Origin: Armatimonadota bacterium
GTDB lineage: Bacteria; Sysuimicrobiota; Sysuimicrobiia; Sysuimicrobiales; Sysuimicrobiaceae
Length of the DNA stretch: 36,726 nucleotides
Assembly: GCA_025059775.1 (NCBI GenBank)
Contig: JANXCW010000017.1
Span: 1 to 36,726 of the forward strand
Direction of reading: 5' to 3'
In this document: piece after piece, positions 11,882-22,983 of the stretch
Position numbering within the stretch: position 1 is the first letter of the stretch
Layout of the letters: every line of letters starts with the position of its first letter
Made by a program: the position numbers and the translations under genes
The notes under the pieces: generated by a model
Database searches by the model: none
What the model saw: the letters and a program-made list of their open reading frames with translations, nothing else
Told to the model about the DNA's origin: nothing

Positions 11882-14215
11882 ATGGGTGTCGTCTCGGTCG
11901 AGCGGGTCCCCCCCCAAAACCTGGAGGCGGAGATGGGGGTCCTAGGCTCCATGTTGTTGGATCGGGACGCCATCGCGCAGGTGGTGGAGATCCTCCGGCC
12001 CGAGGATTTCTACCGGGAAGCCCACCGGCTCATCTACAGCACCATCCTCGAGCTGTTCGACCGGGGAGAGCCGGTAGACCTCATCACCGTCACGGACCGG
12101 CTGCGGGATCAGGGCAAACTGGAGGAAGTAGGGGGCGCGGCGTACATCGCGGCTCTCCTGAACAGCGTTCCCACCGCGGCCAACGCGGAGTACTACGCCC
12201 GCATCGTGCTCCAGAAATCCATCCTGCGCTCCCTCATCCGGGTGGGCACGCAGATCGCGCATCTGGGCTTCGAGGGGGAGGAGGATGTGGAAGTGCTGGT
12301 GGACCGGGCCGAGCGGCTCGTGTTCGAGCTCAGCCGCCGGCGGCTCGTGCGGGACTTCGCGCCTATCCGGGATGTCCTCAAGGAGACCATGGAGCGCCTG
12401 GATGCAGGCTACGACCGGGGCATGATCACGGGGGTCCCCACGGGCTTCGTGGACCTGGACGAGCTCACAGGTGGGCTGCAGCCCGGAGACCTTATCATCG
12501 TGGCCGCGCGTCCCTCCATGGGCAAGTGCCTCAAATACGACGCGCGGATCGTGGACGCGCAGACGGGAGAGGTCCGCACCATCGAGGAGATCGTGCACAG
12601 GCAGGACGTGGTGCTGCTCACCCTGGATGGAGGGCGGCTGGTGGAGGCCCGGCCCAGCGCCTTCGTGGACGACGGCCGCAGGCCCGTCTACCGGGTGCGC
12701 ACGAGCCTCGGCCGGGTGGTGGAGGTCACCGCCACGCATCCCTTCCTCACACCCCAGGGCTGGAAGCCCCTGGCAGCCCTGCGGGCTGGCGACTACGTGG
12801 CCGTGCCTGCCCGTATCCCCGTCTTCGGCACCCTGGATCTCCCCAGCTGCGAAGTGAAGCTCATCGCCTACCTCGCCGCGGGACGGCTGCCCACGGACCC
12901 GCGGCTGAGCCAGGACTTCCTGGACGCGGTGCGGGCTGCCGCAGCGGTCCGCGCTTCCACCCGGGCCCCCACCCTGGCCGGAGTTCGGGCGTGGTCAGAT
13001 CCGGATCCCGAGGTTCCCCTGGAGATCCCCGGAGAACTCACCGGGTATGCGGAGCTCTGTGGTCCTCCCCCGGAGCTCCGGCGGCTCCCTTCCGTGGTCT
13101 ACCGCTTGAACCGCGCGAAGCTGTGCCTGCTGCTCTCGCGCCTGCTGGCGTGCACGGCCACCTGGGAGGAGGAGACCCATACCATCCGCGTCGAGCTGCC
13201 CAGCTCCTTTATGGCGGAGCAGGTCCAGCACCTCCTCCTGCGCCTGGGCGTGGTGGCGGCCCGGGAGGGGGATCGAACCCTGGAGGTACGCCAGAACGCG
13301 GCGGTGCACCTGCTGCGGAGCTGCGGAGTGTTCGGGTGGGAGAAGCTGCGGGAATGGGCCCGCTACGAACCCCGCCCCTTGCTCGAGGAGCCGGACATCC
13401 TGTGGGATGCCATCGAGCGCATCGAGTACGTGGGGGAACACCAGGTCTATGATCTCACGGTACCTGGAACCCACAACTTCGTGGCCAACGACATCTGCGT
13501 GCACAACACCACCTTCTGTCTCAACATCGCCCAACACGCCGCGGTCCGCCACCGCGTCCCTGTGGCCATTTTCTCCCTGGAGACAAGTGCGGAGCAGCTG
13601 GTGCAGCGGATGCTGTGCGCGGAGGCGGGGGTGGACAGCCAGAGGCTGCGGCGGGGCTACCTCTCGGAGGCGGACTGGCGGAAGCTCACCCGGGCCATGG
13701 GCGGGCTCGTGGAAGCCCCCATCTTCATCGACGACTCAAGCAACCTCTCCGTGATCGAGATGCGGGCCAAGGCCCGCAAGCTCAAGGCAGAGCACGGCCT
13801 GGGCCTCATCATCGTGGATTACATCCAGCTCATCCAGTCCTACAAACGCAGCGAGAACCGTACCCAGGAGCTCAGCGAGATCGCCCGCGCCATCAAGTCC
13901 CTGGCCAAGGAGCTGCACCTACCTGTCCTCGCCATCTCCCAGCTCTCGCGGGCCGCGGAGCTCACGGGCTCCAAGATCCCCATGCTGTCCCACCTCCGGG
14001 AGAGCGGGGAGCTGGAGCAGGTGGCGGACCTCGTGATCTTCCTCTACCGGGAGGATTACTACGATCCGGAGAAGGCACGTCGGGAGGGGAAGGAGAACAT
14101 CGCGCTCGTGCGGGTAGCCAAACACCGCAATGGACCCACGGACGACATCGAGCTCTTCTTCCACAGGGAGTACGGCCGGTTCGCGAACCTGGAAAAGCAC
14201 AGTCCGGGGCCCTAG
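11882..14215 (+). CDS. dnaB: Replicative DNA helicase DnaB, interrupted by an in-frame intein
   Basis: The open frame codes for 777 residues; removing the intein (216-542) leaves a 450-residue DnaB of normal length. The N-terminal domain (MGVVSVERVPPQNLEAEMGV to about 150) binds primase. The RecA-like helicase domain has VPTGFVDLDELTGGLQPGD, Walker A RPSMGK joined to TTF only after splicing, Walker B GLIIVDYIQLI, and LSRAAELTGSKIPMLSHLRE near the C-terminus. Because the insertion splits the P-loop, the unspliced protein cannot bind ATP, so replication depends on splicing. DnaB unwinds DNA ahead of the replisome. It has its own promoter and a GGAGG site ten bases before the ATG. Confidence 0.96.
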   Translation: MGVVSVERVPPQNLEAEMGVLGSMLLDRDAIAQVVEILRPEDFYREAHRLIYSTILELFDRGEPVDLITVTDRLRDQGKLEEVGGAAYIAALLNSVPTAANAEYYARIVLQKSILRSLIRVGTQIAHLGFEGEEDVEVLVDRAERLVFELSRRRLVRDFAPIRDVLKETMERLDAGYDRGMITGVPTGFVDLDELTGGLQPGDLIIVAARPSMGKCLKYDARIVDAQTGEVRTIEEIVHRQDVVLLTLDGGRLVEARPSAFVDDGRRPVYRVRTSLGRVVEVTATHPFLTPQGWKPLAALRAGDYVAVPARIPVFGTLDLPSCEVKLIAYLAAGRLPTDPRLSQDFLDAVRAAAAVRASTRAPTLAGVRAWSDPDPEVPLEIPGELTGYAELCGPPPELRRLPSVVYRLNRAKLCLLLSRLLACTATWEEETHTIRVELPSSFMAEQVQHLLLRLGVVAAREGDRTLEVRQNAAVHLLRSCGVFGWEKLREWARYEPRPLLEEPDILWDAIERIEYVGEHQVYDLTVPGTHNFVANDICVHNTTFCLNIAQHAAVRHRVPVAIFSLETSAEQLVQRMLCAEAGVDSQRLRRGYLSEADWRKLTRAMGGLVEAPIFIDDSSNLSVIEMRAKARKLKAEHGLGLIIVDYIQLIQSYKRSENRTQELSEIARAIKSLAKELHLPVLAISQLSRAAELTGSKIPMLSHLRESGELEQVADLVIFLYREDYYDPEKARREGKENIALVRVAKHRNGPTDDIELFFHREYGRFANLEKHSPGP
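12527..13507 (+). other. DnaB intein with a degenerate LAGLIDADG endonuclease domain
   Basis: The 327-residue insertion starts at Cys216 (CLKYDARIVD, block A) and ends with His-Asn (VHN, block G) followed by extein Thr543. Block B is VEVTATHPFLTPQGW, with the TxxH motif; block F is VYDLTVPGTHNFVANDICVH. All residues needed for protein splicing are present. The middle (about residues 320-440) has the layout of a two-motif LAGLIDADG endonuclease, but the motif helices read LIAYLAAGR (327-335) and LLLSRLLACTATW (about 416-428). The acidic residue that should close each helix is replaced by Ala and Thr. The endonuclease is therefore probably dead, leaving a fixed, splicing-only element. The insertion point is the conserved Lys/Thr of the P-loop, a known DnaB intein site. 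Confidence 0.9.
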
Positions 14216-16316: not shown

Positions 16317-17126
16317 CTACGCGCGGCGAGCGATGACCTGGAGCCAGGTACGGGGGACCTCGGTCAGGCCGAGCTCCTGGAAGGCCTGACGTACGCCTTT
16401 CTGGAGAGCCTGGGATCCGATCTCCAGGGGGACACCCGGTAAAGCGCCCTCGATGAACAGATCGAATTCGCTGATGTCCAGCAGGCTTTGCTCGGAGAGA
16501 GCGTGCGTCTGCAGCTCCATCCGGATGTCCCCGAATCCCGTCCGGGCCAGCATTTCCGCGTACTGCTCGGGCGTTAACCACCGCATGGCTGTGGTCTTGA
16601 CCCCTCGGGCGAGCTCGATGCCCTGCCGCCGGAGGAAGCGGATGGCGCGTAGGACCCACACCGTGTAGAAGCGGATGGTCTCGGGGGGATAGGCACCCTC
16701 GAAGAAGGTGGTGTTGAAGGCGAACACGCCCCCCTTGCGGAGGACGGAGAGGATCTCCTGGCATACCAGGGCCTTCTCCTGGATCAGGTGGATGGCGTTG
16801 CAGAACAGGACCGCGTCCGCCTGAGGGACGAGCTGACTGAGTCGCTCCGCGGTGCCCCGCAGGAAGCGGACGATGGAGGACCGGATGCGGGACCGGGCGA
16901 TCTCCAGGGCGGAGGGGGAGGGGTCGATGGCGTACACCACGGCGCCCGCCAGTGGATCCAGCCGTTCCAGGATCATCTCCGTGACGGTTCCGACCCCGCA
17001 TCCCAGGTCCACCACGGTGGCGTTCCGGGGGATGCGGGCGTGTTCCACGAGCCAGGCGTTCACCGCGCGGAAGAAGGGGTGGGCGCTGAACTTCTCAAAG
17101 GAGAACCGGTGCTCGGGGCTGTCCAT
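16317..17126 (-). CDS. Class I SAM-dependent methyltransferase
   Basis: A 269-residue soluble protein from ATG 17126. Motif I VVDLGCGVGTVTE (about residues 38-50) binds S-adenosylmethionine, VYAIDPSPSALEIAR supplies the acidic residue for the ribose, and the post-motif region (VLRKGGVFAFNTTF) completes the Rossmann fold. It resembles the Methyltransf_11/25 group acting on small molecules or lipids, but the substrate is unknown. The start is preceded by a weak GGGAA. It lies 26 bases downstream of the riboflavin kinase-YbaK gene and is probably the last gene of that minus-strand operon. Confidence 0.82.
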   Translation of the reverse strand: MDSPEHRFSFEKFSAHPFFRAVNAWLVEHARIPRNATVVDLGCGVGTVTEMILERLDPLAGAVVYAIDPSPSALEIARSRIRSSIVRFLRGTAERLSQLVPQADAVLFCNAIHLIQEKALVCQEILSVLRKGGVFAFNTTFFEGAYPPETIRFYTVWVLRAIRFLRRQGIELARGVKTTAMRWLTPEQYAEMLARTGFGDIRMELQTHALSEQSLLDISEFDLFIEGALPGVPLEIGSQALQKGVRQAFQELGLTEVPRTWLQVIARRA

Positions 17127-17152: not shown

Positions 17153-17998
17153 CTACGGCTCCTCCTTCAGATCCACTACCCGGGCCCCCGTGATCCGGCG
17201 AAGGTCGGAGGAGGAGAGGACCAGCAGGGCATCCGGAGCGCCTCCTCCCGCATACACCTCCTCGTGCTGGAGCAGGGCCTCATCCATGTACACCGGGATC
17301 TCCGAGGCGAGCCCTACGGGAGGGACGGCGCCCACCGGAAACCCCGTGATGCGCAGCACCGTCTCAGGGTCCGCGGAGCGCACCGCACGGGCGTTCGCCA
17401 CTTCCCTGAGCTTGTCCCGGCTCACCCGGTGCGCGCCGGAGATCAGCACCAGGAGCGGCTCCCCATCCGCCAGGAACACCAGGGACTTCACGATCCGCCG
17501 CGGGGTGGTTCCTAAGGCCGCGGCGGCCTCCTGCGCGGTGCGGGTGTCCTGCGGGAACCGCAGGATGCGGGCGGAAAGGCCGTGTTGGGCGAGCGCCGCG
17601 ACAACCCGCCGAATGCCCCGGTCGGCTTCCAGGATCGCCCGGGCCCGTGCCACATCCTCCGCCATCTGGCGGGCGAGGGCTTCGGGGGATGCGAAGGCCT
17701 GCACGGGACGTAAGAACCGCACGACCTCTACGGTGACCGCGGCGGGAGGATCCCGCAGCTCCACGTCGAGCAGGTGGACCTCCAGGGAGGGATCTTCCTC
17801 TCCGAAGACGGGGACGGGACCGAAGTGGAGGGCGCCCGCGTAAACCGCCTGCTCCGTCCGTACCCAGCAGGCGTAGATGCCGGGTGCGAGGTGGAGATCC
17901 GGGGGAATTTGGAGGTTCAGGGTAGGGAAGCCGAGGCGCCGACCTCGCCCCTTCCCAGGGATGAGGTGGGCGGTGAAGCGGATCGGTTCGTCGCTCAT
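17153..17998 (-). CDS. Fusion of a riboflavin kinase domain and a YbaK/ProX aminoacyl-tRNA deacylase domain
   Basis: A 281-residue two-domain protein. Residues 1-120 are a riboflavin kinase: the GKGRGRRLGFPTLNL loop with the PTxN Mg-ATP motif, PGIYACWV, and LEVHLLD with the catalytic Glu. The FAD-synthetase half of bacterial RibF is absent. Residues about 130-281 are a YbaK/EbsC domain (TAQEAAAALG, RRIVKSLVFL, GAHRVSRDKL, TGFPVGAVPPVG), the family that hydrolyses mischarged Cys-tRNA(Pro) or Ala-tRNA(Pro). The ATG overlaps the exoD stop (ATGA), so translation is coupled. The two activities have no known link, which makes the fusion unusual. The frame stays open upstream only as a shadow of exoD. 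Confidence 0.85.
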   Translation of the reverse strand: MSDEPIRFTAHLIPGKGRGRRLGFPTLNLQIPPDLHLAPGIYACWVRTEQAVYAGALHFGPVPVFGEEDPSLEVHLLDVELRDPPAAVTVEVVRFLRPVQAFASPEALARQMAEDVARARAILEADRGIRRVVAALAQHGLSARILRFPQDTRTAQEAAAALGTTPRRIVKSLVFLADGEPLLVLISGAHRVSRDKLREVANARAVRSADPETVLRITGFPVGAVPPVGLASEIPVYMDEALLQHEEVYAGGGAPDALLVLSSSDLRRITGARVVDLKEEP

Positions 17999-18729
17999 CG
18001 GGCCAGGGAGAGGAGCCACGTGAGGACGCCCCGCAGCGCCTGAGCGCTCGCGCCCACCAGGGAGAGGACGAAGAGCGCAATTCCGATGCCGACGGACAGG
18101 AGAATGCCATCCCGGTTCAGGAGTCCCACGCCTATAGCGAGGGCCGCGAGCCCGGGGAGGGTGTTGAGGAAGGGCAGGGGCAGGAAGAGCACGACGCCCA
18201 TGGCCAGGATGAACGCCGCGCACAGGCGCAGCAGGGCCGCGTCCCCTATGGGCGTCCAGCGGGGCCTGGAGAAGCGCTCCAGGTAGCGCAAGATCCGAAC
18301 CCCGCGAGACCGCAGTCCCTCGACCGCGCGGTGGCTGAGCCGGTAATCCAGGACCCTGCGGGGAAGCCAAGGGCGCTCCCGGCCCAGGGCCATCTGGATG
18401 GCGAGGAGGACGTAGAGACAGCCCACAGCGCCGGAGGTGCCCGGCGGGAGCACGGGGATCAGGGTGGGCAGCGCGAGCAGGATGAGGGCAAATCCAAACC
18501 CCCGTTCGTCGATGCGGTCTGCGATTTCCCGTACGGTGATCACCCGCCCGTCCTCCGCGGTCAGGGCCTCCTCCAGCAGCTCCGACAGCGGCCGCTCCTC
18601 CGGCGGTACGTGCACGAGGCGATGCATGGCGAGAAGGACGAACCCCTGCCCCGCGGCTCCGAGGTGCTCGGTCCGCGCGTCGTTCCGCATTCTACCGGAA
18701 GCGGCAAGAAACCGGAAGCGCGGGCTCAC
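17995..18729 (-). CDS. ExoD family membrane protein
   Basis: A protein of about 244 residues resembling ExoD, an exopolysaccharide-synthesis-related family. After a soluble N-terminal part it shows RPLSELLEEAL and VREIADRIDERGFGFALILLALPTLIP, then four hydrophobic segments with PLPFLNTLPGLAAL. I chose GTG 18729 because it overlaps the stop of the moeA-mobB gene (GTGA) and is preceded by a purine-rich GGGGAGAGGG; a start at Met 18690 or 18627 is possible. ExoD's molecular function is not established. Its place in a cofactor operon is probably incidental. Confidence 0.8.
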   Translation of the reverse strand: MSPRFRFLAASGRMRNDARTEHLGAAGQGFVLLAMHRLVHVPPEERPLSELLEEALTAEDGRVITVREIADRIDERGFGFALILLALPTLIPVLPPGTSGAVGCLYVLLAIQMALGRERPWLPRRVLDYRLSHRAVEGLRSRGVRILRYLERFSRPRWTPIGDAALLRLCAAFILAMGVVLFLPLPFLNTLPGLAALAIGVGLLNRDGILLSVGIGIALFVLSLVGASAQALRGVLTWLLSLAR

Positions 18730-20453
18730 GGGCCCTCTCCCCGCAGCCAGGCGCGGATCCGGGTCGCCAGATCGTCCAGTACCGCCTCCCGCCGAGTGCC
18801 GGGCAACCTGGAGAGGGAAGGGACCTCCAGCCATGCCCCATCCAGGGGATCCTTGGGCGTCCCCACCCGGATCACGGGGTGGTCCCGATGGCGGAATCCC
18901 TCGACCAGCACGAGGTCTAGGCCTCCCGTGGCATCCACCAGTTCCTCCACGAGCTGCTCCACGCTCGGAGTCCCGACCTCCTCGCGGAGCCTGAGGAATC
19001 GCTCCTCAGGCCCCACCACGAGGACCGCCCGAGCTCCCGCACGGGCCATGCGGTGGCTGTCGCTTGCAGGTCGGTCCGGATCGAACCCGTGGGCCGCGTG
19101 CTTGATGGTCGCCACCGTCCTGCCGTCCGACCACAGCCGGCGCAACAGCCCCTCGATCACCGTGGTCTTCCCGCTCCCGGAGACCCCCACCACTCCCACC
19201 ACGAGGGGGGCGGGTTGGACTGGGGGGATGCGCAACTGTGGGCCCTCCTCCTGTCGGTCCAGGCAGAGCACGGGCACCCGGGAGCCCGGCCGGAGCCGGG
19301 GGGTCCCCGCCCGGAGGAGCACGAGCCCGTTCGCCCGGCTCATCCCCGGCAGGACCCCGCCCTCCAGGATCTCCACCTCCGGCGGCTCCCCGAGCACCCG
19401 ACTCCACAGCGCCCGGGTCCGGTCCGCTTCCCGGGTGGGACCATTCCGCAGGCGGGCCAGGACCACGGGCCGCACGATCCGCGCGTGACCCGCAAGACGT
19501 AGCAGGAAAGGCCGCACGAGGAGGTGGTAGGCGGCGAGGCACGCCGCGGGGTTTCCGGAGAGTCCGATTCCCCAACATTCCCCGAGCCGGCCCGCGAAGA
19601 AGGGGCCTCCGGGCTTGAGATCCACCCGTCCCACGATCCGGCGGGCTCCCAAGTCGAGCCAGGTGCGTGGGACACGGTCCGTGGCACCCACGGAAACCGC
19701 ACCCGTGGTGAGGACCACGTGGTAACCCTCCTCCACAGCCGTTCGGAAGGCCCTCGCGAGGGCCGCCGACGCATCCGGGACGATGCCCGCGGGGTACACC
19801 TCGCATCCGATCGCCGCGAGCTCCGCGGCGAGGGTTGGGGTGTTGGAGTTCACCACCCGTCCCGGAGGTGGAAGCACGGTAGGATCCACGAGCTCATCCC
19901 CTGTGGCCAGCAGTGCCACCCGCGGTCTCCGGTATACCGCGATCTCCCGGAACCCGCACGCGGCCAGGGCTCCCACCGCGGCCGGGCGGATCACCTCTCC
20001 CCGCTCTACCAGCACCGCACCGGGGAGGGCTTCCTCTCCGGGTTCCGCCACGTGGGGTTTTCGGGGAAGGGGACCGGAGAAGACCAGCACGTCCCGCTCC
20101 CGTCGCACGTGCTCGATGGGGATCACCCGATCTCCCCGACGCGGCAGGGCACCTCCCGTGGGGATGGCCCAGGCTTCCCCGCGGTCCGGGCCTTCCGCCG
20201 GCCCCTCTCCCATGCGGACTTCCCCCGTGATCCGCAGCCGGGCGGGTCGGTCCGGGGAGGCGTCCCGCACGTCCGCATCCCAGACCACGTAGCCATCCAT
20301 GGCCGCCCGCCGGAAGGAAGGGATGGGCCTGGGGCACATGTAAGTCTCCGCCGCCACCCGTCCCGAGGCCGCGGCCACGGGGACGCGCTCGGTTCCGATC
20401 GGCTCCGCTTCCCGCAAGAGCTGCTGGAAGGCCAGTTCCAGCTCCAGGGCCAC
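18726..20453 (-). CDS. Fusion of MoeA molybdenum transferase and MobB GTP-binding protein
   Basis: A protein of about 575 residues. Residues 1-400 are MoeA (molybdopterin molybdenumtransferase), which inserts molybdate into adenylylated molybdopterin: SFRRAAMDGYV, the IPTGGALP loop, LLATGDEL, VLTTGAVSVG and GLSGNPAACLAAYHLLVRP. From about residue 410 a MobB module follows, with P-loop GVSGSGKTT, the TIKHAAHGFD motif and DLVLVEGFRHRDHPVI; MobB assists the later MobA step. Two GTG starts are possible. I prefer 20453, five bases after GGAGG; the other is at 20468. It is divergent from mobA with about 45 bases between, so the pair shares a control region. The product serves molybdoenzymes not seen here. 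Confidence 0.9.
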   Translation of the reverse strand: MALELELAFQQLLREAEPIGTERVPVAAASGRVAAETYMCPRPIPSFRRAAMDGYVVWDADVRDASPDRPARLRITGEVRMGEGPAEGPDRGEAWAIPTGGALPRRGDRVIPIEHVRRERDVLVFSGPLPRKPHVAEPGEEALPGAVLVERGEVIRPAAVGALAACGFREIAVYRRPRVALLATGDELVDPTVLPPPGRVVNSNTPTLAAELAAIGCEVYPAGIVPDASAALARAFRTAVEEGYHVVLTTGAVSVGATDRVPRTWLDLGARRIVGRVDLKPGGPFFAGRLGECWGIGLSGNPAACLAAYHLLVRPFLLRLAGHARIVRPVVLARLRNGPTREADRTRALWSRVLGEPPEVEILEGGVLPGMSRANGLVLLRAGTPRLRPGSRVPVLCLDRQEEGPQLRIPPVQPAPLVVGVVGVSGSGKTTVIEGLLRRLWSDGRTVATIKHAAHGFDPDRPASDSHRMARAGARAVLVVGPEERFLRLREEVGTPSVEQLVEELVDATGGLDLVLVEGFRHRDHPVIRVGTPKDPLDGAWLEVPSLSRLPGTRREAVLDDLATRIRAWLRGEGP

Positions 20454-20496
20454 CGCTTCCTCCCCCACGCACCTCTATGGTACGATCCCCCGCGAC

Positions 20497-21087
20497 GTGC
20501 CGCATGCCACGGGGATCGTCCTCGCGGGAGGCCATAGCCGACGGATGGGTCGGGACAAGGCGACCCTACCCTTCGGCCCGGACACCCTGCTCGGGTGGGT
20601 GGTGCGCCGGGTTCGATCCGTGTGCCCGAGGGTCCTTGTGGTCGCGCGGGAGCCGGCCCGGTATCCGGGGTTCGAGGTGGTTCCGGATCGGTTCCCGGGA
20701 CTTGGGCCCCTCGCGGGGCTGCACGCGGGCCTGTCGGTCGCGGAGACGGAGTTGGGGGTCTGTGTGGCCTGTGACCTGCCGTTCGTGGAGCCTGCCCTCC
20801 TGCGCCACCTCCTCCACGCGGCGGAGGAGGTGGACGCCGTGGTACCGGTGGTGCGGGGAAAGCCCGAGCCCCTCTGCGCGGTCTATCGTCGGACCGCGCT
20901 TCTCCCCGCGGAGGCGCTGCTGCGGGCGGGTGGAGGTTCCCTGCGGGATCTGTTTGCGCGGTTGCGCGTGCGCTTCGTCCCGGAGCCGGAGCTGCGGCAG
21001 GCGGACCCGGAGCTCCTGAGCTTCCTCAACCTGAACACCCCGGAAGATTACGCGCGGGCCCTTCGTCGGCTGCGCGGGGAGGACTAG
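20497..21087 (+). CDS. mobA: Molybdenum cofactor guanylyltransferase MobA
   Basis: A 196-residue nucleotidyltransferase. The GTP-binding start reads GIVLAGGHSRRMGRDKATLP, with the LAGGxSxRMGxDK signature; the metal-binding VACDLPFVEP and the RGKPEPLCAVY strand follow. It attaches GMP to Mo-molybdopterin to form the guanine dinucleotide cofactor. The GTG at 20497 has no Shine-Dalgarno. A -10-like TACGAT (20481-20486) ends ten bases before it, so the mRNA is leaderless or nearly so. Its stop shares the CTAG tetranucleotide with the stop of the convergent proS. Confidence 0.92.
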   Translation: MPHATGIVLAGGHSRRMGRDKATLPFGPDTLLGWVVRRVRSVCPRVLVVAREPARYPGFEVVPDRFPGLGPLAGLHAGLSVAETELGVCVACDLPFVEPALLRHLLHAAEEVDAVVPVVRGKPEPLCAVYRRTALLPAEALLRAGGGSLRDLFARLRVRFVPEPELRQADPELLSFLNLNTPEDYARALRRLRGED

Positions 21088-22520
21088 TAGGCCCGGGCGA
21101 AATACACCACCGCCCGGGAGGGCTGGCCGCAGACCACGCAGGCGCCCTCCGGAGACTCCTCCGGAATCACCCGGGGGGATCCGCCCGTTTCCTCCCGCAG
21201 CCGGTCCTCGCAGCCCTGGTCCAGGCACCACGCCACCCGCACGAACCCCCGGCGCTGCCGGATGAGCTCCGCGGCCTCCTCGTAGGATGTGGCGACGAAG
21301 GTGTGGGTCTGGAGGAACTCCCGGGCCCGCTCGAGCATCCGCCTCTGCACACCTTCCAGCTCCGCGGCCACCGCATCCTCAATGCCCGCAAGCGGCACGG
21401 GGCGCTTGCCGCCCGCACCGTCTCGGGCCACCAGCACCGCCTGCTCCTGCTGGACTTCCCGGGGACCCAGCTCGATGCGCAGGGGAACACCGCGGAGCTC
21501 CCACTCGTTGAACTTCCACCCGGGCGTGTACTCCTCGCGGTCGTCCAGCTGCACCCGAAAGCGCTCCCGGAGCTGTGCGGCAAGAGCCCGGGCCCGCTCC
21601 AGGACCACGGATGTCTCCTCGAACCGGATGGGAACGATCACCACCTGAATGGGCGCGATGCGGGGTGGCAGGAACAGCCCCCGGTCGTCCCCGTGGGCCA
21701 GCACCAGGGCCCCGATCAGGCGCGTGGTCACCGCCCAGGAGGTGGTCCACACGTACTTCTCCGTGTTGTCCCGGTCTAGGAACTTCACGTTAAAGGCGCG
21801 GGCGAAGTGCTGTCCGAGGAAGTGGGAGGTTCCGGCCTGAATGGCCTGTCCATCGGGCATGAGGGCCTCCAGGGTGTAGGTCCACTCCGCGCCCGCGAAC
21901 TTCTCGCTGGGGGGCTTTTTGCCCACGAGCACCGGGATCGCCAGTTCCCCCTCCAGCAGGCGCCGGTAGATGTCGAGAATCAGGCGGCACTCCTCGTCCG
22001 CCTCCTCCGCAGTGCGGTGGGCGGTGTGTCCCTCGTGCCAGAAGAACTCCAGGGTACGCAGGAACAGGCGCGTGGACTTCTCCCAGCGCACCACACTTCC
22101 CCACTGGAGGATGCGCACGGGCAGATCCCGGTAGGACTGGATCCACTTCGCGTACATGGGCATGATGATGGCCTCGGAGGTGGGGCGTACCGCGAGCCGC
22201 TCGCCCAGCGGCTCGTCTCCGCCGTGGGTGACCCACGCCACCTGGGGGGCGAACCCCGCCACGTGCTCCGCCTCTTTCTTCAGGAAGGACTCGGGGATGA
22301 ATAGGGGGAAGGCTGCGGTCTGGTGTCCCGTGCGCCGGAACTCCCCGTCCAGCCACCGCTGGATGGCCTCCCAGATGGCCCATCCGTATGGCCGGACCAC
22401 CATGCACCCGCGTACCGGTGCGTAGTCCGCGAGCTCCGCCCGCAGGCACACCGCGGTGTACCATTCCGAGAGGCTCTCCTGCTTCCGGGGGATCTCCTTG
22501 ACCGCCTCCTTCGCCTCCAT
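21084..22520 (-). CDS. proS: Prolyl-tRNA synthetase, archaeal/eukaryotic-type, without insertion editing domain
   Basis: A 478-residue class II synthetase from ATG 22520, with AGGAGAGG upstream; the longer open frame beyond it overlaps the thioredoxin-like gene and is not coding. Residues 1-280 are the catalytic core: VRPTSEAIIMPMYAKW (motif 2 region), RTLEFFWHEGHTAH, and motif 3 near LAHGDDRGLFLPPRIAPIQV. The anticodon-binding domain follows, then a C-terminal zinc-like domain with two cysteine pairs (WCLDQGC, CVVCG) ending in the typical aromatic-Tyr (FARAY). The roughly 180-residue INS domain of E. coli-type ProRS is missing, so Ala- or Cys-tRNA(Pro) must be cleared in trans. It has its own promoter within a long inverted repeat. 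Confidence 0.95.
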   Translation of the reverse strand: MEAKEAVKEIPRKQESLSEWYTAVCLRAELADYAPVRGCMVVRPYGWAIWEAIQRWLDGEFRRTGHQTAAFPLFIPESFLKKEAEHVAGFAPQVAWVTHGGDEPLGERLAVRPTSEAIIMPMYAKWIQSYRDLPVRILQWGSVVRWEKSTRLFLRTLEFFWHEGHTAHRTAEEADEECRLILDIYRRLLEGELAIPVLVGKKPPSEKFAGAEWTYTLEALMPDGQAIQAGTSHFLGQHFARAFNVKFLDRDNTEKYVWTTSWAVTTRLIGALVLAHGDDRGLFLPPRIAPIQVVIVPIRFEETSVVLERARALAAQLRERFRVQLDDREEYTPGWKFNEWELRGVPLRIELGPREVQQEQAVLVARDGAGGKRPVPLAGIEDAVAAELEGVQRRMLERAREFLQTHTFVATSYEEAAELIRQRRGFVRVAWCLDQGCEDRLREETGGSPRVIPEESPEGACVVCGQPSRAVVYFARAY

Positions 22521-22540
22521 GGACCTCTCCTGCCGCAACA

Positions 22541-22582
22541 CGCGTGACGGATTGTACCACCCCCCTGCGGTTCCGTCACGCG
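22541..22582 (-). promoter_or_regulatory. proS promoter inside a perfect 10-bp inverted repeat
   Basis: On the minus strand a -35 GTGACG (22579-22574) and a -10 TACAAT (22556-22551, preceded by TGG) are 17 bases apart. CGCGTGACGG (22541-22550) and CCGTCACGCG (22573-22582) form a perfect inverted repeat whose arms cover the -35 and the predicted start site. This is classic operator geometry. The outer arm also overlaps the stop of the upstream thioredoxin-like gene, so a terminator role is possible. Confidence 0.55.
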
Positions 22583-22983
22583 CGGGCGGGCTCGTGACGG
22601 AGGGGGGAGGACCGGGCCAGCTGTCCCAGGAGGCGATGCTCGTCCGCCACCCCGTGGTTGAGGGCGACGATGCGACCGGAGGCGTCCACCACCGCGGTGG
22701 CGGGGACGGTCCAGACCCCGTACCGCCGGGCGCGCTCCGGCTGCCGCTGGACGTCCACCACCTCGATGCGCACTCCCCCCCGTAGGGCACGCAGGCGTTC
22801 CAGGGCTGGCAATTGCTGGGTCCGGCACGGAACGCACAGGGGGTGCGTGAAGGCCACCACCGCGGGCCCGACTACATCTGCCGGTGCGCGCAGGAACCGC
22901 CGGTCACGGATGCCCAGGAGAGCGGACCACCCTACCGCCACCAGGAGGAGGATTCCGAAGGCGATCAATGCCCGTTCCGGCAT
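22576..22983 (-). CDS. Membrane-tethered thioredoxin-like protein (ThiX-like)
   Basis: A 135-residue protein with a single N-terminal hydrophobic segment (ALIAFGILLLVAVGWSALLG) that probably anchors it in the membrane, followed by a thioredoxin fold. The active site is CVPC in FTHPLCVPCRTQQLP, and the cis-proline is in VWTVPATAVVD. It is the third gene of the sulfur operon; in mycobacteria a thioredoxin (ThiX) and a DUF4395 gene likewise accompany the CysA2 sulfurtransferase (from memory). Its likely task is to reduce a persulfide or disulfide formed in thiosulfate use. It follows the DUF4395 gene by four bases. Confidence 0.78.
   Translation of the reverse strand: MPERALIAFGILLLVAVGWSALLGIRDRRFLRAPADVVGPAVVAFTHPLCVPCRTQQLPALERLRALRGGVRIEVVDVQRQPERARRYGVWTVPATAVVDASGRIVALNHGVADEHRLLGQLARSSPLRHEPARA

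Follow-up and report, generated by a model that had tools for sequence, protein, structure and literature searches.

A riboflavin kinase domain fused to a ProXp-x-like aminoacyl-tRNA deacylase domain, conserved within one family of Sysuimicrobiota

The window, by which we mean the whole stretch of 36,726 nt that was analysed, carries a single open frame in which a riboflavin kinase domain is joined to an aminoacyl-tRNA editing domain. The genes and domains of concern here are the following:

16317..17126, minus strand: class I methyltransferase gene (Pfam Methyltransf_25), 26 bp downstream of the fusion gene
17153..17998, minus strand: fusion gene, riboflavin kinase :: ProXp-x-like aminoacyl-tRNA deacylase (open frame, Pfam, five intact homologues)
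17195..17548, minus strand: aminoacyl-tRNA editing domain, residues 151-268, with conserved K171 and GxxPP loop (PF04073)
17549..17629, minus strand: linker, residues 124-150, in predicted helix 105-138 (AlphaFold, alignment, dN/dS)
17630..17989, minus strand: riboflavin kinase domain, residues 4-123, with T26/N28 (PTLN) and E73 (PF01687)
17995..18630, minus strand: ExoD-family membrane protein gene, upstream, start codon uncertain (PF06055, 169.5 bits)
21084..22676, minus strand: proS, type I (archaeal-type) prolyl-tRNA synthetase (ProRS), true start probably near 22500 (TIGR00408)

The fusion frame runs from an ATG at 17998 to a TAG stop (17153-17155), encoding 281 aa with zero internal stops. 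Its N-terminal part (residues 4-123) matches Flavokinase, PF01687, at 98.1 bits against a cut-off of 19.6, and contains the motifs PTLN (T26, N28) and SLEVHLLD (E73); its C-terminal part (residues 151-268) matches tRNA_edit, PF04073, at 111.8 bits against a cut-off of 25.5. The initial annotation had read one frame here as an FMN-forming kinase joined to a tRNA editor, and its domains, motifs (PTxN and EVHLLD), coordinates and strand are all correct. The TGA of exoD overlaps the ATG of the fusion gene (ATGA, 17995-17998) and the methyltransferase gene follows after 26 bp, so that the fusion gene is probably part of an operon. Neither an FMN riboswitch nor a tRNA gene was found within the window. 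Elsewhere in the window there is a DnaB helicase gene containing an intein (12566-13507; PF14890, 76.9 bits; residues 229-542), and a MoeA-type molybdopterin biosynthesis protein fused to MobB (18729-20468), adjoined by a MobA-like gene on the opposite strand.

Conservation of the fusion and its status as sole flavokinase

The domain order was sought in 43 genomes of the phylum Sysuimicrobiota (CSP1-3), all belonging to one order, a search across genomes that the initial annotation had proposed. An intact, near full-length fusion occurs in six genomes, representing three genera (g1 to g3) of a single family (f1), or six of the seven f1 genomes. The other five fusions are uninterrupted and share 59-83% identity with the window protein (genome G000); their carriers include Bacterium HR32, Armatimonadetes bacterium SKYB51 and Armatimonadota bacterium QQ_201912_bins_187, and HRBIN32 has been assigned to phylum CSP1-3, now Sysuimicrobiota (PMC11974145). 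The fusion is real and conserved. That an error of sequencing or assembly, or a frameshift, had joined two genes is virtually impossible and is ruled out by the six intact relatives: the frame recurs in six genomes at 59-100% identity, with three matching independent depositions and no stop codons, and nothing was found in favour of an artefact. The seventh f1 genome (G039, 94% complete) yielded neither the fusion nor any flavokinase, which may reflect a gap in its assembly. In a pattern-based contig scan reaching outside Sysuimicrobiota, only three records among the matches listed span both domains, and these are Sysuimicrobiota. A literature search found no pairing of a flavokinase with a tRNA-editing domain; according to a 2024 review (PMC11295145), free-standing editors of the INS superfamily consist of one domain, except for ProXp-ala fused to ProRS or to a plant C-terminal domain, whereas here a ProXp-x-like editor follows a flavin kinase on the same chain.

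In all six fusion-bearing genomes, G000 included, PF01687 matches once, at the fusion, which rules out a second such kinase covering for it, and a CTP-dependent, archaeal-type riboflavin kinase was not found in G000. Hence, the fusion is the only detectable flavokinase of each of these uncultured hot-spring bacteria. It is not a bifunctional RibF (prokaryotic type I FAD synthetase), since PF06574 (FAD_syn) is absent from it; the FAD_syn domain of G000 is on contig C4, without a kinase domain. RibF consists of FAD_syn only in f1 and f7 (loci L042 of G042, L038 of G035, L037, L039, L040 and L041 of g3, and L035 and L036 of g1), the kinase module having been lost from its C-terminus in three ways: it is truncated (g2), replaced by an unrelated extension of ~100 aa (g3), or represented by a remnant of ~90 residues without a Pfam match (g1). 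RibF of f2, f4 and f5 is the usual two-domain protein.

T26, N28 and E73 align with T208, N210 and E268 of the Corynebacterium ammoniagenes riboflavin kinase (RFK) module (CaFADS) and are invariant in the six fusions, and the domain has a fold match in 5a8a. Judged from these likenesses, the kinase half would convert riboflavin to FMN at the expense of ATP, and the separate, kinase-less RibF would then make FAD. The fusion kinase thus has its fold and its T/N/E catalytic residues in common with the C. ammoniagenes RibF module (PDB 5A88, 2X0K), but it is shorter, has no FMN adenylyltransferase domain and groups with standalone Patescibacterial kinases.

Origin of the kinase and of the fusion

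This grouping comes from a tree of 94 kinase domains (120 columns; sequences from other phyla chosen by the fusion motifs, and the clade named after inspection), in which the fusions join the unfused kinase of family f7 (G042) and standalone kinases of Peregrinibacteria and Liptonbacteria with support of 99/96, and the RibF kinases of their own phylum fall elsewhere. Constraining the fusions to group with those RibF kinases is 56 log-likelihood units worse (p-AU 0.0013), and this, with the standalone grouping, rules out that the kinase was cut from the organism's own RibF. Rather, a version related to Patescibacterial kinases has apparently replaced RibF's own module. The Peregrinibacteria and Liptonbacteria kinases are not fused; four such Patescibacterial genomes (L068, L069, L070, L071) have one flavokinase each, and FAD_syn did not exceed its cut-off in any of the four. 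A CSP1-3 bacterium has been proposed as a host of CPR bacteria (PMC11974145), an association that makes transfer of the kinase plausible while bearing on the organisms and not on this gene itself.

The kinase of f7, a sister family, belongs to the same group, is 56% identical and is syntenic with the fusion, but it is unfused. In G042 the gene order is X - exoD - RFK - rluB-like - Y - Z, and in G035, G038 and G040 homologues of X, exoD, Y and Z flank exoD - RFK::deacylase; the order exoD-RFK is common to f7 and to the f1 loci for which flanks are available. Since the same flanks surround the unfused f7 kinase, the kinase gene has kept its position, and it is the deacylase that was appended downstream. 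The distance from the exoD-fusion pair to proS varies, being 3.1 kb in g1 and more than 200 kb in G035 and G040, while in G038 proS is on another contig. We infer a sequence in which a standalone kinase, related to the Patescibacterial ones, would have entered the common line of f1 and f7 at a site following exoD, with transfer in that direction; RibF's own kinase module would then have decayed; and the deacylase gene, which in other parts of the phylum neighbours proS and ribD, would have arrived directly behind the kinase in the ancestor of f1 and fused with it.

Identity of the deacylase and its ProRS context

The initial annotation had called the second domain a YbaK/ProX deacylase acting on Cys- or Ala-tRNA(Pro). 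Its placement in the editing family (PF04073) stands, but YbaK proper is not supported: the YbaK equivalog model TIGR00011 gives 73.5 bits against a cut-off of 153.25, and the nearest relative appears to be ProXp-x. Among solved proteins the closest by sequence is 2CX5 (Thermus thermophilus TTHA1699, 110 bits), which is also the best fold match to the AlphaFold model (Foldseek; TM 0.90 by target length, 43% identity). 2CX5 has been used as a representative of ProXp-x, whose main substrate is given as 2-aminobutyryl-tRNA, with less activity towards Ala-tRNA(Pro) (PMC11295145). A preference for A73 is a further mark of ProXp-x. By sequence and fold the domain matches ProXp-x (2CX5; APE2540, 1WDV); the YbaK/EbsC Cys-tRNA(Pro) deacylase shares superfamily and fold, but the domain is below the TIGR00011 cut-off and only 25% identical to 2DXA (fold match). 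The deacylase tree, which leaves its inner forks unresolved, was built from families other than ProXp-ala, ST1 and ST2. The INS-superfamily lysine (K171) is invariant in the six fusions, and two of them have an altered GxxPP loop (GAVSP, GAVAP).

The proS gene starts 3089 bp from the fusion gene, and its product matches TIGR00408 (proS_fam_I) at 545.6 bits against a cut-off of 437, with no Pfam match to the PF04073 editing domain; it is therefore an INS-less, archaeal-type ProRS some 3 kb away, as first noted. T. thermophilus ProRS likewise lacks INS (PMC3973320). The further suggestion, that such an enzyme needs trans-editing help, fits the deacylase but does not account for the fusion. Type I INS-less ProRS is found phylum-wide (34 of the 43 genomes are over the cut-off), and in families without the fusion this deacylase is encoded by a gene of its own. 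The need for a trans-editor is thus explained, but the joining to a kinase is not; as a cause of the fusion, a phylum-wide trait is ruled out. On this footing the deacylase half would hydrolyse tRNA mischarged by the INS-less ProRS, most likely 2-aminobutyryl- and Ala-tRNA(Pro).

One f2 genome, G005, which is without the ProXp-x-like gene present in most of its relatives, has a 570-aa ProRS-like ORF (L189:814-2523; C9, minus strand) directly downstream of type I proS (L189:2527-3972). It combines an INS-type editing domain (79.5 bits) with an anticodon-binding domain, and a class II synthetase core was not detected in it; it looks like a bacterial ProRS retained for editing alone.

Most other genomes of the phylum have an unfused homologue of the deacylase (~50% identical). 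These genes lie within 6 kb of proS in six of nine f2 and 10 of 11 f5 genomes, which supports a role in proofreading, and within 6 kb of ribD in seven of nine f2 and 10 of 11 f5 genomes, so that the deacylase has flavin genes for neighbours outside the fusion as well. Rfam reported an FMN riboswitch at three f5 loci, in each of them between the deacylase gene and ribD. In f4 the deacylase is linked to neither proS nor ribD.

Relationship between the two halves

We consider it probable that the protein comprises two enzymes, a kinase and a ProXp-x-class deacylase, which work independently on one chain. This reading draws on a linker whose length and helix are not conserved and on the C. ammoniagenes RFK module, which is active by itself (PMC5544777); the altered GxxPP loop in two of the six fusions counts against it. 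The modules are most likely held together as the outcome of a fusion of neighbouring genes, one of which, the kinase, cannot be lost. AlphaFold predicts the window protein with a mean pLDDT of 88.5 and pTM of 0.79, and places a single helix (105-138) that leads out of the kinase and into the deacylase; in a g3 relative the same stretch is split into two predicted helices (100-118, 124-134), and a rigid helical bridge that fixes domain geometry was rejected on this account. An alignment of the six fusions shows the linker to be their least conserved part, varying in length between genera. When G000 is compared with G036, the kinase has a dN/dS of 0.18, the deacylase one of 0.28 and the linker one of 0.47 (this last figure from 14 changes only), and so both domains are maintained under purifying selection while the join is not tightly constrained.

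It is improbable that the chain is kept for its essential kinase while the deacylase decays as a passenger, or the reverse. The altered loops, and the presence in G000 of a second, distant YbaK-family gene on contig C1, would be in keeping with decay, but selection acts on both domains, the catalytic lysine is invariant, and the second gene is from a different branch. That gene (G000:C1:224403-224768, L004) is nearest, among solved proteins, to 3OP6 of Legionella (139 bits), and its like is found in many genomes of the phylum.

Coupling between the halves, whereby FMN, riboflavin, ATP or redox state at the kinase domain alters the deacylase, or tRNA binding alters FMN production, is an unlikely alternative that deserves consideration because both domains have been kept on one chain in three genera, with no unfused copy remaining. 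The proximity of the unfused deacylase to ribD, with an intervening riboswitch in some f5 loci, could moreover reflect a functional tie with flavin metabolism, which would speak against a chance joining. Yet proS is as near as ribD in the f2 and f5 clusters, which may be a mere housekeeping neighbourhood, and f4 has neither linkage. The fusion contains no additional regulatory domain, and its variable linker, with a predicted helix that is whole in one member and broken in another, argues against precise communication between the domains. The more specific proposal that flavin status (riboflavin, FMN or ATP occupancy) or redox state gates the clearing of mischarged tRNA by ProXp-x, or the reverse, we regard as quite improbable; a single observation suggests it, the co-location of unfused deacylase and riboswitch-controlled rib genes in sister families.

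A comparison may also be drawn with RibR of Bacillus subtilis, a monofunctional flavokinase that acts on the rib leader (PMC12542839), the comparison being one of described function. Like RibR, the fusion combines a monofunctional kinase with an RNA-related function, its added domain comes from an RNA-acting family, and an RFN-like element lies upstream of ribD in f1 genomes (in G000 it scores 61.7 bits, just below the cut-off). RibR acts on riboswitch RNA, however, and the partner domain here is a tRNA deacylase (tRNA_edit) of standard type with K171, whose close relatives are known tRNA editors; there is no indication of riboswitch binding, and it is very unlikely that the C-terminal domain binds RNA to modulate rib expression at an FMN riboswitch.

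Two independent enzymes on one chain thus remain the probable reading. A cofactor enzyme that the cell cannot do without has parted from RibF, its usual partner, and has then been joined to an enzyme of translation quality control. The proposal that a CSP1-3 bacterium hosts CPR bacteria (PMC11974145) suggests circumstances in which the kinase gene could have been transferred. Since the fusion is the only flavokinase, gene loss cannot separate the two functions, and coupling is directly testable on one purified protein. If true, flavin-gated proofreading would fit the position of the unfused deacylase beside riboswitch-controlled rib genes in sister families.
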